Shown: positions 26,221 through 32,429 of the stretch, in pieces | Layout of the letters: each line of letters opens with the position of its first letter | How positions within the stretch are numbered: position 1 is the stretch's first letter | Source: Myxococcales bacterium | GTDB lineage: Bacteria > Myxococcota > Myxococcia > Myxococcales > Myxococcaceae | Assembly (NCBI GenBank): GCA_020846875.1 | Contig: JADLDB010000124.1 | Coordinates: forward strand, 1 to 46,532 | DNA length: 46,532 nt | Direction: 5' to 3' | The notes under the pieces: generated by a model | Database searches by the model: none | What the model saw: the letters and a program-made list of their open reading frames with translations, nothing else | What the model was told of the DNA's origin: nothing | Translations under genes and position numbers: made by a program

Positions 26221-26263
26221 TGTCACACGATTCGCCCGGGGAAGCCAAACGAAACCTGTGACA
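26221..26263 (+). promoter_or_regulatory. Imperfect inverted repeat in a divergent promoter region, candidate operator
   Basis: TGTCACACGATTCG (26221-26234) pairs with CGAAACCTGTGACA (26250-26263), 12 of 14 positions complementary, with a 15-bp spacer. It is 14 bp upstream of the ABC-transporter start and about 55 bp upstream of the small exported-protein start. The size suits a dimeric repressor such as TetR or GntR, but no regulator gene is adjacent. Confidence 0.5.
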
Positions 26264-26317
26264 GCACGCCCGGAGTCCGGTAGACGTAGGCGTCCCACGC
26301 TGCGAAGTGCCCATTTC

Positions 26318-26752
26318 GTGAAGACCGCCACGTCTCTCCTCCTCGCTGCGCTGCTCTTGACCGCGGGCTCCGCACGGGCGGAGGACCGGGCGGGGCGCGG
26401 GCGGGGCTGGCTCACCGGGGTGGGCCTGGGCCTCACCGCGCTCAGCTTCACCGGCTTCGGGCTGGGCCTCGCAGGAGTCCTCAACGCGGCCGACGCCAAC
26501 CACACGCTGGCCGCGTACGTGGGCAACGGCCGCGTGCCCCTGCCCGAGGAAGCGGGGACGGTGAAGGAGCTGCAGAACCGCGTCGGTGCCGCGCAGTCGC
26601 AGGCCACCGTCGGCTTCGTCCTCGGAGGGCTGGCCCTGGCCGGCGCCATCACCTGCCTGGTGCTGGACGGGGTGTGGGCGACGCAGCCGGTGTCGGTGGC
26701 CTTCGCGCCTTCCGCGGGCGGCGGCGCGCTGCTCTTCTCCGGGCGCTTCTGA
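26318..26752 (+). CDS. Small exported membrane protein, unknown
   Basis: A 144-residue product if GTG 26318 is used; this starts directly on the signal peptide VKTATSLLLAALLLTAGSARA. The mature part has two hydrophobic stretches: GWLTGVGLGLTALSFTGFGL and TVGFVLGGLALAGAITCLVL. The segment between (NAADANHTLAAYV, EEAGTVKELQNRVGAAQSQ) is likely helical. The pattern matches small helix-pair proteins common in myxobacterial genomes, but no function is known. An alternative GTG at 26258 lies inside the operator-like repeat and adds an Arg-rich leader. It diverges from the ABC operon. Confidence 0.65.
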   Translation: MKTATSLLLAALLLTAGSARAEDRAGRGRGWLTGVGLGLTALSFTGFGLGLAGVLNAADANHTLAAYVGNGRVPLPEEAGTVKELQNRVGAAQSQATVGFVLGGLALAGAITCLVLDGVWATQPVSVAFAPSAGGGALLFSGRF

Positions 26753-26773
26753 CTCAACCAGACACCCTGCTGG

Positions 26774-26962
26774 CTACGACAGACACGCGGCCTGGTGCCG
26801 CACCTCGACCGGCTGCGTCGGCGCCGGCTGGGAGGTGTGGAGGAAGCGCGCCGCGCTCCACGCCGGGGTGCCTCCCGACGTGGCTGACAGCGGGACGCCG
26901 TTCAGCCGCACCTCGAAAGACGTCGGCGCCGAGTCGGGCCGCCCGCTGAGGTAGTACGCGTC
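26774..26962 (-). pseudogene. C-terminal relic of a beta-rich surface protein
   Basis: Minus-strand translation from 26962 to stop TAG at 26774-26776 gives 62 residues: DAYYLSGRPD, FEVRLNGVPL, GGTPAWSAARFL, PVEVRHQAACLS. No start codon precedes it. YYLSG-xP followed by a short V-x-NG-x-P strand, a GGTPxW turn and a final V-x-V-x-x-x-A-C-L resembles the C-terminal beta domain of myxobacterial VWA-type lipoproteins. The rest of the gene is absent. It sits about 75 bp beyond the 3' end of the hydrogenase maturation gene. Confidence 0.5.
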
Positions 26963-27035
26963 GGCGCCGCCGAAGAGGCGCCGGCCAAGGCGGCCCAGCC
27001 GTCGGTACCGCCTCCACGCCCGGGAAGGGAGTGCC

Positions 27036-28829
27036 TCAGGCCGGCTGCGCCGCGCGCTCCCACGCGTCGGCGAGGTGGCGCACCACGACGTCCCTCACCA
27101 CATAGGAGGCGTCCTCCACGGCCCGGGCCACGGGCGCGCTCAGCACCTTCGTCTCGGCCAGCGGCCCCGGCTGGCAGCCCACCACCAGCACCCGGCCCGC
27201 CGCCCCGCCCATGGCCTTGACCAGCCCGAGGACGGTCGCCGGCTCGAGCCCGTGCGCGCCGCCCAGCCCCCCGCTTTCCTCGAGGGTGGGCTCGAGGACG
27301 AAGACGGTGCCCGGCGACTCGCCGCGGTCCACCGCGTCCACCAGCACCAACAACTCGTAGCGTCCCAGCGACTGCCAGGCCAGGTGGACGCCCCGCAGGC
27401 CGAAGTCCGCCACCTCCACCTCCTCGGGGAAGCCGCCCTCGTCGGCCAACCGCCGCGCCACCGCCACCCCGAAGCCGTCGTCGCCCAGGGCCACGTTCCC
27501 CACGCCGGCCACCAGCACCCGCGTGCGCTCCGGCCGGGGCTCCACCTCGTCGGCGTCGAAGGACAGGAAGCGCCCGTCCTCCTCTGAGAGCGACGCCGCG
27601 TCTTCGTCCAACGTCACCGCGAGGTGCTGGTGCCCGTCCACGTCGTGCAGCACCGCGCGCACGGTGGCGCCGCGCCCCTCGTAGCGCTGCTCCTGCGCCC
27701 GCCGGCGTCCCGGGTGCAAGCGGACGTGGCTGCCGCGCTGCACCGCCACGCCCTGCACCTCCACCGCGTCCGTCGGCGGCCCCGCCACGTCGTCCCGGCA
27801 GCGCACCGCGGTCAGCGCAGGCTGGGTGTCGGCGTTCCACACCCCGCGCAGGTCGAAGTCGTCGGCCCAGACGTCGGCGCCGGGCAACTCGTTGGGCTGG
27901 GTGTCCTCCAGCCCCTTGCTGTCGAACGACTCGGTCGGCTCCGGGGAGACGCGCGGCGGCGCCCGGGACGTGACGCCCCGCAGCTCCACCACCGGCGCGG
28001 GCGCCCGTCCGCCTTCCCACACCTCGAAGCGCGGCGTGGGCACCGGCCTCAAGTCCCGGGCGGTGGCGCTGGTGCGGGAGGCCTCCTCTTCGGCGCGGGC
28101 TCTGGGCAGCCCCTCTGCCCCGGTGCCCTCGAAGACGCCCGACAGCGCTCCCTGCGGGTGGTCGCCGAGGGGGATGGGTGAAGCCAGCAGCAAGCTGGCG
28201 TCGCCCGGCGGTCCGGCCAGCACCGGCCAGGCGCGCACGTTCTGACAACTGGCCGCCAGCGCCCTGGCCGCGGCGGGCGGCTTGAGCAGCGAGACGAAGG
28301 CACCGTCCGTCGCGCAGAAGAGGGCGTGGACGCCCACCAGCGCGCGGGGCAGCAACTGCTGGCGCGTGGCGCCCACCGCGTCGACCGGCGTCACGTTGTC
28401 CACCCGCAGCCGTACCCGGGTGTACTCGCCCACCGGCTGCACGCGCAGGAAGACGTCGCCCAGCAGCGCCTGGCGGACGCACACCGAGGCGCCGTCGGAC
28501 TCTTGCCCCCCGGGGACGGAGAAGGGCACCACGCGCTCGCCCGGCTGCGCGGTGAGGGTGAGGTCGACGGCCTGCTCCACGCCTTCGTCGGACGACGGCT
28601 GGCCAAAGGACGCGCGGCGCTGCACCTGGAGGAACCGCACGCGCGCGTGCAGCGTGAAGTCCCTTCCTTCCACGAGGAACTCGCTCTGCTGCCAACTGTG
28701 CGCGGCCTCGTCGTCGCCGCAGGCCGCGCGCGGCATCAGCACGCCGGACTGCCAGCGCCGCGCCGAGGCCCGGGCACCTTCGGAGAGGACGGCGTCAGCG
28801 ATGCCTTCGGCGACGGTGAAGTCAGTCAT
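27036..28829 (-). CDS. NiFe-hydrogenase maturation protease fused to a large N-terminal region
   Basis: A 597-residue protein. The last 165 residues are a peptidase M52 (HycI/HyaD/HupD) domain: VLVAGVGNVALGDDGFGVAV, VLVDAVDRG and GGAHGLEP keep the Asp, Asp and His expected to bind nickel. This protease trims the hydrogenase large subunit after metal insertion. Residues 1-430 contain GVHALFCATDGAFVSLLKPP, LLLASPIPLGDHPQ, then a beta domain with GSHVRLHPGRRRAQ and LHDVDGHQHLAVTLDEDAA. From memory, similar sequences accompany high-affinity (group 1h-like) hydrogenases. Typical M52 proteins have about 160 residues, so this is a fusion. Start ATG 28829; longer frames look non-coding. Confidence 0.8.
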   Translation of the reverse strand: MTDFTVAEGIADAVLSEGARASARRWQSGVLMPRAACGDDEAAHSWQQSEFLVEGRDFTLHARVRFLQVQRRASFGQPSSDEGVEQAVDLTLTAQPGERVVPFSVPGGQESDGASVCVRQALLGDVFLRVQPVGEYTRVRLRVDNVTPVDAVGATRQQLLPRALVGVHALFCATDGAFVSLLKPPAAARALAASCQNVRAWPVLAGPPGDASLLLASPIPLGDHPQGALSGVFEGTGAEGLPRARAEEEASRTSATARDLRPVPTPRFEVWEGGRAPAPVVELRGVTSRAPPRVSPEPTESFDSKGLEDTQPNELPGADVWADDFDLRGVWNADTQPALTAVRCRDDVAGPPTDAVEVQGVAVQRGSHVRLHPGRRRAQEQRYEGRGATVRAVLHDVDGHQHLAVTLDEDAASLSEEDGRFLSFDADEVEPRPERTRVLVAGVGNVALGDDGFGVAVARRLADEGGFPEEVEVADFGLRGVHLAWQSLGRYELLVLVDAVDRGESPGTVFVLEPTLEESGGLGGAHGLEPATVLGLVKAMGGAAGRVLVVGCQPGPLAETKVLSAPVARAVEDASYVVRDVVVRHLADAWERAAQPA

Positions 28830-29348
28830 GCGGCCGCCCCCCACGCGCGTACGCGCGCAGCACACCGCCGGGGAGGACGCTTCTCGCTCCCGCCTCCGCT
28901 GCGGGCGCTGCCAGGAAATCGAGCCACGGGTAAGAGCGAGCTCTCGGTAAGTCAAGGCGACCGGGAAAAGCCGAGCGATTCCGTCCGTCGCCGGACGCGC
29001 GGTGCGCCACGTGTCAGCCTCTTGGTTGCGCTGCTCGCGCCCGCCCCGCGTGACGCCTCCCGCGCTGGTGCCGCGCGCAGTCGGCGCGCCCATCTTCAGC
29101 ACGACGCTCGCCGCCCGTCGGGCCAGGCGCCCCCCCGGCTCGGCGCTCTTCAAGTCCATGCAGGCGTCCTCCGGCAGCAGGGAGGCTCACCACGCTCGAG
29201 CCCGGGGTGGCGCCGCCAGTGGGCCGGCATTACCCGAGCAGCGGGAGGGCAGCGACTCCAGGTGAGCCGGTGGACTGCCTCCCGGCCGTGGACCGCAGAC
29301 GTTCGCGGCGGAGGTTTTTGTCTGTGCGGGGCTGAGGGGGGGGGCGTC
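28830..29348. other. 519-bp divergent intergenic region between maturation genes
   Basis: It separates the minus-strand protease fusion from plus-strand hypB and should hold both promoters. On the minus strand TTGACT at 28950-28955 followed 17 bp later by TACCCG is a weak -35/-10 candidate. On the plus strand a TTTTT tract at 29314-29318 lies 30 bp before hypB. Weak open frames in both directions are Arg/Pro-rich; no gene supported. Confidence 0.35.
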
Positions 29349-30446
29349 ATGTGCACGCACTGCGGCTGTGGAAGACCTGACGACGAGGTGGAGCACGAGC
29401 ACCTCTTGCCCGATGGGGACGTGGGGAAGCACGCGCACGGCGTCGCGCCCGCCCACGGGGAAGTCGCGCCCGGCGGCCTTTCGCCGGCGTGGGCTTCTGC
29501 CGGGCCGCCGGGAGCGCACGTCGAGCCACCGCACGAAGAGCACGACGCGCCCCTGGACTCCGGCCCGAAGGACGAGTCTCCCGAGGAGCTCTGGTTCACT
29601 CCCGAGACGCGGGCCGCGCCGCCTCTCCGGCCGTCGCGCGACGCCGCGCGGCAGGACTTCGACGGCGTGGTGCTGGCCTGGCCACACCACCTGCGCCCGG
29701 CCCCGCCCCCGGCCGACGACGACGAGGAGGACGAGTTGCCCCGCCTCCCCGACGCGCGCGAGCGCCGCCTGGCGCAGCTGGGCCGCGAGCTCCTCGCGCG
29801 CAACGACGCGCAGGCCGCGCGCAACCGCCGCCGCTTCGAGGCCGGACACACGCTGGTGTTGAACCTCCTGTCCAGCCCGGGCTCGGGGAAGACGACGCTG
29901 CTGGTGCGCACGCTGGTGGCGCTGGCCGGGCGCGTTCCGGTGGCCGTCATCGAGGGTGACCAACAGACGTCGCTGGACGCCGAGCGCGTCCGCGCCGCCG
30001 GGGCCCTGGCGGTACAGGTCAACACCGGCGCCGGCTGCCACCTCGACGCGCAGATGGTGGCGCGCGCCGCCCTTGCGCTCCCCGCGCTGGCCGGCGGCAT
30101 CCTCTTCGTGGATAACGTGGGCAACCTGGTGTGCCCGGCGGGCTTCGACTTGGGCGAGGCGGCGAAGGTGCTCATCCTCAGCGTCACCGAGGGCGAGGAC
30201 AAGCCGCTCAAGTACCCCGACCTGTTCGCCGTGGCCGACCTGGTGCTGGTGAACAAGGTGGACCTGCTGCCGCACGTCGACGTCTCGGTGCTGGCGCTGG
30301 AGGCCAACCTGCGCCGCGTCAACCCCGGCGTGGAGATGATGGTGCTGTCCGCCCGCACCGGCCTGGGCTGCAAGCACTGGCTGGACTGGTTGCAGCTCCA
30401 CCTGCCGCGCAAGCCCGCCGAAGCCTCCGCGCACCTGCCTCGCTGA
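29349..30446 (+). CDS. hypB: Hydrogenase nickel incorporation GTPase HypB
   Basis: A 365-residue GTPase that delivers nickel to NiFe hydrogenase precursors with HypA. The N-terminus MCTHCGCG carries the high-affinity nickel motif CxxCGC. Residues 10-130 form a long His/Asp/Glu/Pro-rich extension with HEHLLPDGDVGKHAHG, which may store nickel. The GTPase domain has Walker A SSPGSGKTTLL (about 175-185), EGDQQTSLDAER, the second metal site GAGCHLDA (C230, H231), FVDNVGNLVCPA and LVNKVDLLPH. The ATG at 29349 gives exactly the Cys-motif start, which supports it. It diverges from the maturation protease; no hypA, hypC-F or structural gene lies in the window. Confidence 0.95.
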   Translation: MCTHCGCGRPDDEVEHEHLLPDGDVGKHAHGVAPAHGEVAPGGLSPAWASAGPPGAHVEPPHEEHDAPLDSGPKDESPEELWFTPETRAAPPLRPSRDAARQDFDGVVLAWPHHLRPAPPPADDDEEDELPRLPDARERRLAQLGRELLARNDAQAARNRRRFEAGHTLVLNLLSSPGSGKTTLLVRTLVALAGRVPVAVIEGDQQTSLDAERVRAAGALAVQVNTGAGCHLDAQMVARAALALPALAGGILFVDNVGNLVCPAGFDLGEAAKVLILSVTEGEDKPLKYPDLFAVADLVLVNKVDLLPHVDVSVLALEANLRRVNPGVEMMVLSARTGLGCKHWLDWLQLHLPRKPAEASAHLPR

Positions 30447-30455
30447 CGCGCCTCC

Positions 30456-32429
30456 TCATGGGCAGGGCTCGTCGAGGCCTCGCGGCGCCACCAGGGAAGG
30501 CCCGGCCGGTGTCCCCACGCCCAGCACGAAGCACGCCACCTGCGAGCTGACGCCGGCCATGTCGAAGACGACGTAGTGGCCCAACTCGAAGGGCACCCTC
30601 AGGTGCACCGTCGCCGCGGTGACGCCATTCTGGTTGCCCTTCAGGGGGAAGGACGGCTGCGTGCCCCGCCCGTCGAGGCGCAGCGCCTTCGGCTCCAGCG
30701 GGTCCGCCTCCTCGCCCACCAGGGTGGTGCCCAGCGAAACCGCCACCGCTGCCTGCGCGCCCGGGTGGAAGTACCCGTCGACGACGCCGTGGGGCATGAA
30801 GAAGGGGTGGGGCTGCTGCCCCGGGTGCGGCTCGCGCGCGACGTGCCGCGCCTTGGCCGTCGGGTCGACGAAGTCCCACAGCGCCTGGAAGGCGTTGAGC
30901 AGCGGGTGCTTGTTGTCCAGCGCCTGGCCGGCCTCAAAGCCCAGAATCGTCTCCAGCGCCGCGCGCAGGTCCACCGGGTAGGTGGCCGTCGTCGCCACCT
31001 CCAGCAACAGCCCCCCCGCGCCGGAGAAGACGAAGCCGTGGATGCGCTTGGCCACCGTGGCCACCGGGATGCCGATGGTGCTGCCCATCGACTGGCCCAT
31101 CGCGGACACGCGCGCGGTGTCGAAGGTGGCCGTACCGCCGCCGTCCAGCGGCACCGTCATCCCTTCCAGCAGGCGCGTCAGGTACACCGCCTCCATCGCC
31201 GCCACCTGCATGTTGTCGACGGTGGAGTCGATGTCGCCGAACAAGTCGTACAGCCGCAGGCCGGTGGTGTCCGGCGGGCTGTCGCGGTCCCCGTGCAGCG
31301 GGAAGTCAAAGCCCATGGTGGCCACGCCCCGCCGGCCCAGCCACGCCGCCGGCCCGCTGCCCTTCGGAGGCTCTGGCAACATGTCGCGCGTCGCCGTCTG
31401 CGGCAGCGGCCCGCGGTCCATCACCTCGCGGTACTCGCCGCCGGAGCCGTGGAAGTACAGCATGAGCGGGTAGCCGCCCACCGGCGCCGCCACCTTCGGG
31501 ATGGAGATGGACAGCCGCACCCGCTGCGTCCCCTCCTGCACCGGCGCGGTGCCGTCTTCGTTCCACACGATGCGCCCCTTGCCGGGGATGGCCCCCGATT
31601 GGATGTGCGGCACCTCGTAGGCGGCGGTGTAGAGGGTGAAGTCCGGGTACTCGTCGGCCTTCGTCCAGGGCGTGGCCAGGGCGGGCTGGGGCAGCGTCTC
31701 TACCCAGGCGGCCAGCTTGTTGAGCGCCGCGCTGGGGTCCAGCGTGCGGAAGACGGTGGCGCCCACCACGCGGCCCCTCGGCCAGTGCTCCTGGAGGAGG
31801 AAGTCGCGCAGCGGCGCCAGCGCCTCCTGGGCCTTCGCGTCGGCGTCGGGCAGGCGCTCCAGCGCGGCGTGGAAGGGCCGGCTGCGACCCAGCGGCTGGC
31901 CGGAGGTGTCCAAGAGCGCGTCGGTGAGCAGCACCGCGTAGGTGGTGTGGGGCCGGCGCACGAAGCCCTGCACGGTGTTGAGGGCCAGCATCCGCGCCGG
32001 GCGGTAGGGCGCCGCGGCGGTGGAGAAGGTGACCTCCAGCGGGAAGCGGCGGCCGTATTCGGGGGAGGCGGGGTCGATGTCCACCAGTTGTACCGGCGCC
32101 TCCATCGTCAGCGTCTGCGAGGGGTCGGAAGGCAGGGTGGCCGGGTCCAGGTCGCCGGAGAGGACGAAGAAGGCGCCCGAGTTGACGCCCCAGCCCTCGG
32201 TGACGCGCGCGTCGATGGCGTCCAGCCACATCTTCACCAACTGCGGGCGCGGGCCGGGCCAGCGCTCGAGGTTGTAGCTGCCGTCGGCCTGGCGGCGGAG
32301 CTCGCTGGGCAGCGGCACGCCCCAGAAGTCGTTGGCGTCGGGGTCGAAGTTCACCTGCGTGGGGCGCTGGACGTAGCCGTCACCGCAGGCGCAGAGGAGG
32401 AGGAGCGAGAGGGCAGCAGAGCGCTTCAT
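30456..32429 (-). CDS. Secreted alpha/beta-hydrolase lipoprotein
   Basis: A 657-residue lipoprotein: signal MKRSAALSLLLLCAC with lipid on Cys 15. The first half is beta-rich and unassigned (NDFWGVPLPSELRRQADG, RARMLALNTVQGFVRRPHT-like strands). The second half is an alpha/beta hydrolase: oxyanion-type GGYPLMLYFHGSGGEY, nucleophile elbow SAMGQSMGSTIG (GxSxG), and a late His candidate in FELGHYVVFD. Such proteins are esterases, lipases or polyester depolymerases; substrate unknown. It converges on hypB with a 9-bp gap. Confidence 0.85.
   Translation of the reverse strand: MKRSAALSLLLLCACGDGYVQRPTQVNFDPDANDFWGVPLPSELRRQADGSYNLERWPGPRPQLVKMWLDAIDARVTEGWGVNSGAFFVLSGDLDPATLPSDPSQTLTMEAPVQLVDIDPASPEYGRRFPLEVTFSTAAAPYRPARMLALNTVQGFVRRPHTTYAVLLTDALLDTSGQPLGRSRPFHAALERLPDADAKAQEALAPLRDFLLQEHWPRGRVVGATVFRTLDPSAALNKLAAWVETLPQPALATPWTKADEYPDFTLYTAAYEVPHIQSGAIPGKGRIVWNEDGTAPVQEGTQRVRLSISIPKVAAPVGGYPLMLYFHGSGGEYREVMDRGPLPQTATRDMLPEPPKGSGPAAWLGRRGVATMGFDFPLHGDRDSPPDTTGLRLYDLFGDIDSTVDNMQVAAMEAVYLTRLLEGMTVPLDGGGTATFDTARVSAMGQSMGSTIGIPVATVAKRIHGFVFSGAGGLLLEVATTATYPVDLRAALETILGFEAGQALDNKHPLLNAFQALWDFVDPTAKARHVAREPHPGQQPHPFFMPHGVVDGYFHPGAQAAVAVSLGTTLVGEEADPLEPKALRLDGRGTQPSFPLKGNQNGVTAATVHLRVPFELGHYVVFDMAGVSSQVACFVLGVGTPAGPSLVAPRGLDEPCP

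Follow-up and report, generated by a model that had tools for sequence, protein, structure and literature searches.

An in-frame fusion of a Hhy-operon accessory protein and an M52 protease in a Myxococcaceae genome without a group 1h [NiFe]-hydrogenase

Introduction

Endopeptidases of the M52 family probe the nickel of the large-subunit precursor of hydrogenases and then clip its C-terminal extension. HybD, HycI, HupD and HoxW are stand-alone members of about 160 aa. Each M52 protease is considered to serve a single type of large subunit, and the recognition box is used here as previously defined (PMC2670836).

In Cupriavidus necator (plasmid pHG1), Mycobacterium intracellulare, Methylocystis parvus and Kitasatospora, an accessory gene lies between DUF6084 and a protease gene, in operons that also hold the small and large subunits of a hydrogenase, a NifU-like gene and DUF5947. 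These are operons of group 1h (Hhy/Hof, 'actinobacterial-type') enzymes, as is established for pHG1 and for the mycobacterial enzyme. In M. smegmatis, hydrogenase activity depends on HhyE, the NifU-like protein of the operon, and a possible electron acceptor was named in a PHG067 homologue (PMC6883350). No experiment on the accessory protein of Hhy operons was found in the literature.

The DNA analyzed here (the window) comprises contig C124 in full, 46,532 nucleotides long, of a Myxococcaceae genome of 7.06 Mb in 200 contigs that is rated 100% complete. The accessory and protease families are both known, as the products of separate neighbouring genes; new here is their fusion, in a genome without a group 1h enzyme.

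Results

The fused gene and its reading frame

The fused gene and its parts were delimited by open reading frame analysis, profile searches, alignment and structure prediction, as follows:

27036..28829, minus strand: fused gene, 597 aa, Hhy-operon accessory protein (N-terminal) and M52 protease (C-terminal); from ORF, profiles and alignment
28152..28829, minus strand: beta-rich domain of the accessory protein, residues 1-226; from alignment, conservation and pLDDT
27777..28151, minus strand: predicted disordered linker, residues 227-351, in place of a helical segment (motifs DATEIDExLxLR...TDxRA...RLHGA)
27537..27776, minus strand: SH3-like barrel, residues 352-431, conserved in the family; from alignment, structure prediction and fold search
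27090..27515, minus strand: M52 protease domain, residues 439-580; ligands D451, D498 and H526, recognition box DFGLRG

The first codon of the 597-aa frame is the ATG at 28829. The frame stays open upstream as far as an ATG at 29159, and the start was placed at 28829 because this position is supported by alignment to the accessory family. There was no stop in the 597 codons, and the codon-position G+C was that of a coding frame over all of them (GC3 0.87-1.00). A 597-residue protein with a C-terminal M52 domain, as the earlier note had read it, is thus upheld by the frame, by its coding character and by the profile match given below. A frameshift artefact was also considered as the source of the fusion: neither of the other two frames at the junction (codons 431-438) is interrupted by a stop over the 25 codons before it or the 120 after it, so that the junction is not an obvious single-base error. 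Searches of the window against Rfam gave no match, and promoter and terminator scans of it performed no better than chance.

A pattern scan of the genome contigs and searches in the class and phylum detected no second fused copy; the fused gene was found in this genome only.

The protease domain is of the Hhy type

Residues 439-580 matched TIGR00072 with 107.6 bits (cut-off 47.45), and PF01750 scored 42.6 bits in the fused protein (cut-off 23). The nickel ligands D451, D498 and H526, which correspond to Glu/Asp16, Asp62 and His93 of HybD, occupy invariant columns in an alignment with 28 Hhy proteases, which agrees with the Asp/Asp/His set of the earlier note. Of the 27 positions that at least 95% of relatives share, the protease part retains 26. 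It shares family and nickel ligands with HybD, HycI, HupD and HoxW but, unlike these, forms the C-terminal domain of a much longer protein and is closest to the Hhy proteases rather than to HupD or HoxW. In the protease tree it fell inside the Hhy-protease clade, as sister to the protease of Centralia MAG 231 (L137; 98/83), while the HupD-type proteases formed a separate clade (99/97); it grouped neither with HupD or HoxW nor with the Myxococcaceae Hhy protease of genome G023. Its recognition box, DFGLRG, is Hhy-type, as against DGGTQG in the HupD and FQLN in the HoxW of the same genome; this weighs against the protease having moved to HupL or HoxH as its substrate.

The N-terminal part is a remodelled accessory protein

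With residues 1-226, tblastn matched a protein without a name in 12 records of plasmids, residues 3-433 of the M. intracellulare accessory protein aligned across the window ORF (E 1e-43), and full-length members of the accessory family aligned over the whole N-terminal part (residues 1-430). These matches, together with the operon neighbours of the family, confirm that the N-terminal region comes from a high-affinity hydrogenase context, as the earlier note had stated for segments of it. No Pfam family covers this part and PADLOC gave no match for it. The accessory protein in general (e.g. L133:4305-5582) has no Pfam family, despite adjoining nearly every group 1h protease surveyed.

Two blocks conserved in the family have been lost. 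The motif EGYxLYPYRxSxxKN is deleted around residues 18-24 of the fusion, and the segment with DATEIDExLxLR is replaced by the linker; together, 24/29 conserved positions are gone from them, and both blocks are near-invariant among all hhy-linked accessory homologues. At the level of at least 95% conservation the N-terminal part retains 40/67 positions, as against 59/64 or better in controls. The retained positions divide into 5/29 within the lost blocks and 35/38 outside them, a contrast that is descriptive only, the block boundaries having been drawn after the losses were seen. Outside the blocks the N-terminal part did not differ from the protease (35/38 versus 26/27; Fisher p 0.64). At the 85% level, it retained 62/81 positions outside the blocks, below every control (0.83-0.99). 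The confinement of the losses to two blocks suggests segmental loss, with the rest of the protein held.

AlphaFold2 models of the fusion gave pLDDT values mostly above 90 for residues 46 to 220 (the beta domain), predicted the SH3-like barrel with high confidence, and left residues 231-351 disordered (pLDDT below 50). The predicted structure of an intact relative has helices at 277-324, where the fusion is disordered. Fold searches with an intact relative matched its beta domain to part of DrmA (Z 10.8, rmsd 4.6 over 185 aligned residues) and its C-terminal barrel to PetP (Z 7.6, rmsd 2.3 over 64 residues); the barrel also had a weak likeness to nitrile hydratase beta. These are resemblances of fold, from which no function was assigned.

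The two genes are separate in group 1h operons

A survey was made of 80 loci (L132-L211) drawn from Actinomycetota, Myxococcota, Acidobacteriota and others. A separate protease gene adjoins the accessory gene in 78/80, and the two are fused in none. HhyL lay within the fetched stretch in 74 loci; four of the other six are short contigs and two, L135 and L140, are full stretches. The latter two (Minicystis rosea and a Kofleriaceae MAG) carry the accessory gene, the protease and DUF5947, with no HhyL within 8 kb. In the seven HhyL-bearing myxobacterial relatives the accessory and protease genes are separate in all. A more distant hydrogenase (L057, genome G120; about 42% identity to HhyL) has its own protease and no match to the accessory gene.

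The closest described pair, that of the Hof cluster on C. necator H16 pHG1 (H16_RS31865 and H16_RS31870), with its Mycobacterium, Kitasatospora and Methylocystis counterparts, comprises the same two families in the same order, with homology over the whole N-terminal part and the whole protease. There, however, they are two overlapping or adjacent genes beside hhyS, hhyL, nifU and DUF5947, whereas here a single fused gene stands without these, and its product lacks the two motif blocks. Separate genes in relatives, which the earlier note had listed as evidence against its reading, are indeed the rule; they explain the origin of the fusion and do not undo it.

Hydrogenases and hyp genes of the genome

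The 46.5-kb contig carries no hydrogenase gene, in keeping with what was first noted near the fused gene, and two hydrogenases are encoded elsewhere. Large-subunit matches in the genome were limited to HupL and a related HupK on C14 and to HoxH on C65. A search at E<=1 with a group 1h large subunit returned Hup, Hox and HupK and nothing else, and a hidden or broken hhyL was rejected on these grounds. DUF5947 is absent as well; in a set of 144 relatives it is confined to the seven genomes that carry HhyL. A group 1h cluster, with hhyL, hhyS, a nifU-like gene and DUF5947 alongside, was thus not found, hhyL and DUF5947 being absent genome-wide. The Hup small subunit carries CTCC, the motif of oxygen-tolerant membrane-bound enzymes as read from its sequence, and HupD and HoxW are intact, each within its own hydrogenase cluster. 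Of the hyp genes, hypC, hypD and hypE are on C146, hypF and another hypB on C9, and hypA on C14.

The divergent hypB is of other origin

A hypB gene lies divergent to the fused gene across a gap of 519 bp:

29349..30446, plus strand: HypB, 365 aa, with CxxCGC N-terminus, H/D/E/P-rich extension and GTPase domain with metal-site Cys/His; TIGR00073

It scored 260.8 bits against TIGR00073, and its codon-position G+C was that of a coding frame. The protein starts with MCTHCGCG and carries an H/D/E/P-rich extension some 130 residues long, and the motifs GSPGSGKTT (Walker A), GAGCH, NLVCP and CTHCGC were read directly; a divergently placed HypB with a CxxCGC motif and such an extension had been described correctly. 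Its pairing with the fusion does not extend to origin: in the HypB tree it was placed in the Myxococcaceae non-hhy clade (96/93), together with the C9 copy of the same genome, and not with hhy-linked HypB proteins. A relic of the same hhy operon was rejected for this gene on that placement. With the protease in the Hhy clade and HypB in a non-hhy clade, the two divergent genes differ in origin. The GTPase domain is 68% identical to that of the C9 copy and the N-terminal Cys segment is similar, but the window protein sits on a longer branch (0.53 versus 0.15) and its gene is not beside hypF or other hyp genes. It is a paralogue of the HypB of Myxococcaceae that has diverged from it.

The locus and a decayed relative

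The gene pair is flanked by an ABC transporter and a lipoprotein-like gene. In the relative G039, which has the ABC transporter on the same side, the counterparts of a small ORF (window 26258-26752) and of the lipoprotein gene (30456-32429) are less than 20 bp apart and the site is empty. The fused gene and hypB therefore form an island:

26753..30455, no strand assigned: island of about 3.7 kb with the fused gene and hypB; from comparison with G039

In genome G016 (L226:9960-11380), about 1.4 kb of other sequence separates the same flanking genes. The site may have been used for insertions more than once.

A decayed group 1h locus was observed in genome G086 (L096:7047-8804, G086:C1), with the C-terminal half of the accessory gene, an intact-looking protease, and HhyS, HypD and HypE fragments, and with no large subunit gene (hhyL) there. 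Both loci keep an accessory part and the protease, and the hydrogenase is gone from both; the accessory gene of G086, unlike that of the window, is truncated and unfused, and other hhy/hyp fragments remain.

Discussion

The explanation that we favour, with about even confidence, is that of an orphaned, remodelled Hhy accessory pair, fused in frame, whose protein is still made and whose protease is probably competent. Two genes of a group 1h operon, for the accessory protein and for the protease, are joined here in frame. By alignment and structure prediction the N-terminal part has been remodelled: its N-terminal motif and helical segment are missing, and a disordered linker connects the beta domain and SH3-like barrel that it retains. 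We infer that the protease is still functional and is attached to a scaffold which formerly contacted the large subunit of a group 1h enzyme. The matching substrate is absent from the genome and, at the 85% level, retention in the N-terminal part is below every control, both of which count against this explanation; the candidate substrates would be the Hup and Hox large subunits only. The earlier note's proposal that the fusion matures a hydrogenase from another part of the genome is not supported in the simple sense, because there is no group 1h enzyme and Hup and Hox have their own proteases.

The main rival is a recently orphaned vestige, which we consider possible but less likely: the gene pair would have been carried in, or left after loss of a group 1h cluster, fused by a small deletion, and would now be idle and drifting. 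The absence of the cognate hydrogenase, the loss of two conserved blocks, the restriction of the fused gene to one genome and the similar end state in G086 all speak for it. A long-idle gene would, however, scatter its losses, and here they are limited to the two blocks, nearly every conserved position is retained in the remaining N-terminal part and in the protease, and the frame is open with strong codon bias throughout, which argues against a long-dead gene. A remnant of a lost cluster, the other option of the earlier note, is a plausible alternative, and the relative G086 offers a clear case of a decayed hhy locus. Rather unlikely, in our estimate, is a repurposed single-chain maturation factor, in which a group 1h protease on a remodelled Hhy scaffold would serve Hup, Hox or a non-hydrogenase target, with the diverged second HypB as the other half of a two-gene cassette.

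The Hhy-type protease and recognition box would also fit a group 1h hydrogenase that is matured by the fused protein but falls between the 200 contigs of the assembly. This is improbable: the assembly is rated complete, hhyL and DUF5947 would both need to be missing, the contig extends 27 kb and 16 kb beyond the genes without a hydrogenase gene, and the blocks lost here are near-invariant in all hhy-linked homologues. Still less probable is that the fused frame gives two products, the protease restarting internally and the physical fusion having little meaning. The start Met of the protease itself is missing in the fusion, and GTG 438 is a possible restart, preceded by GGAG 9 nt upstream and giving a product, MLVAGVGN..., that matches the protease start of L160. 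The N-terminal part is, however, ended by no stop in any frame near the junction, so that the joined product would be made if translation begins at the gene start.

The locus bears on hydrogenase maturation in two ways. A natural fusion of the accessory protein with the protease suggests that the two act jointly on the large subunit, which would give the accessory protein a role in maturation. The loss of the two blocks coincides with the absence of a group 1h hydrogenase, and the blocks are therefore proposed as the surfaces through which the accessory protein may touch the hydrogenase.
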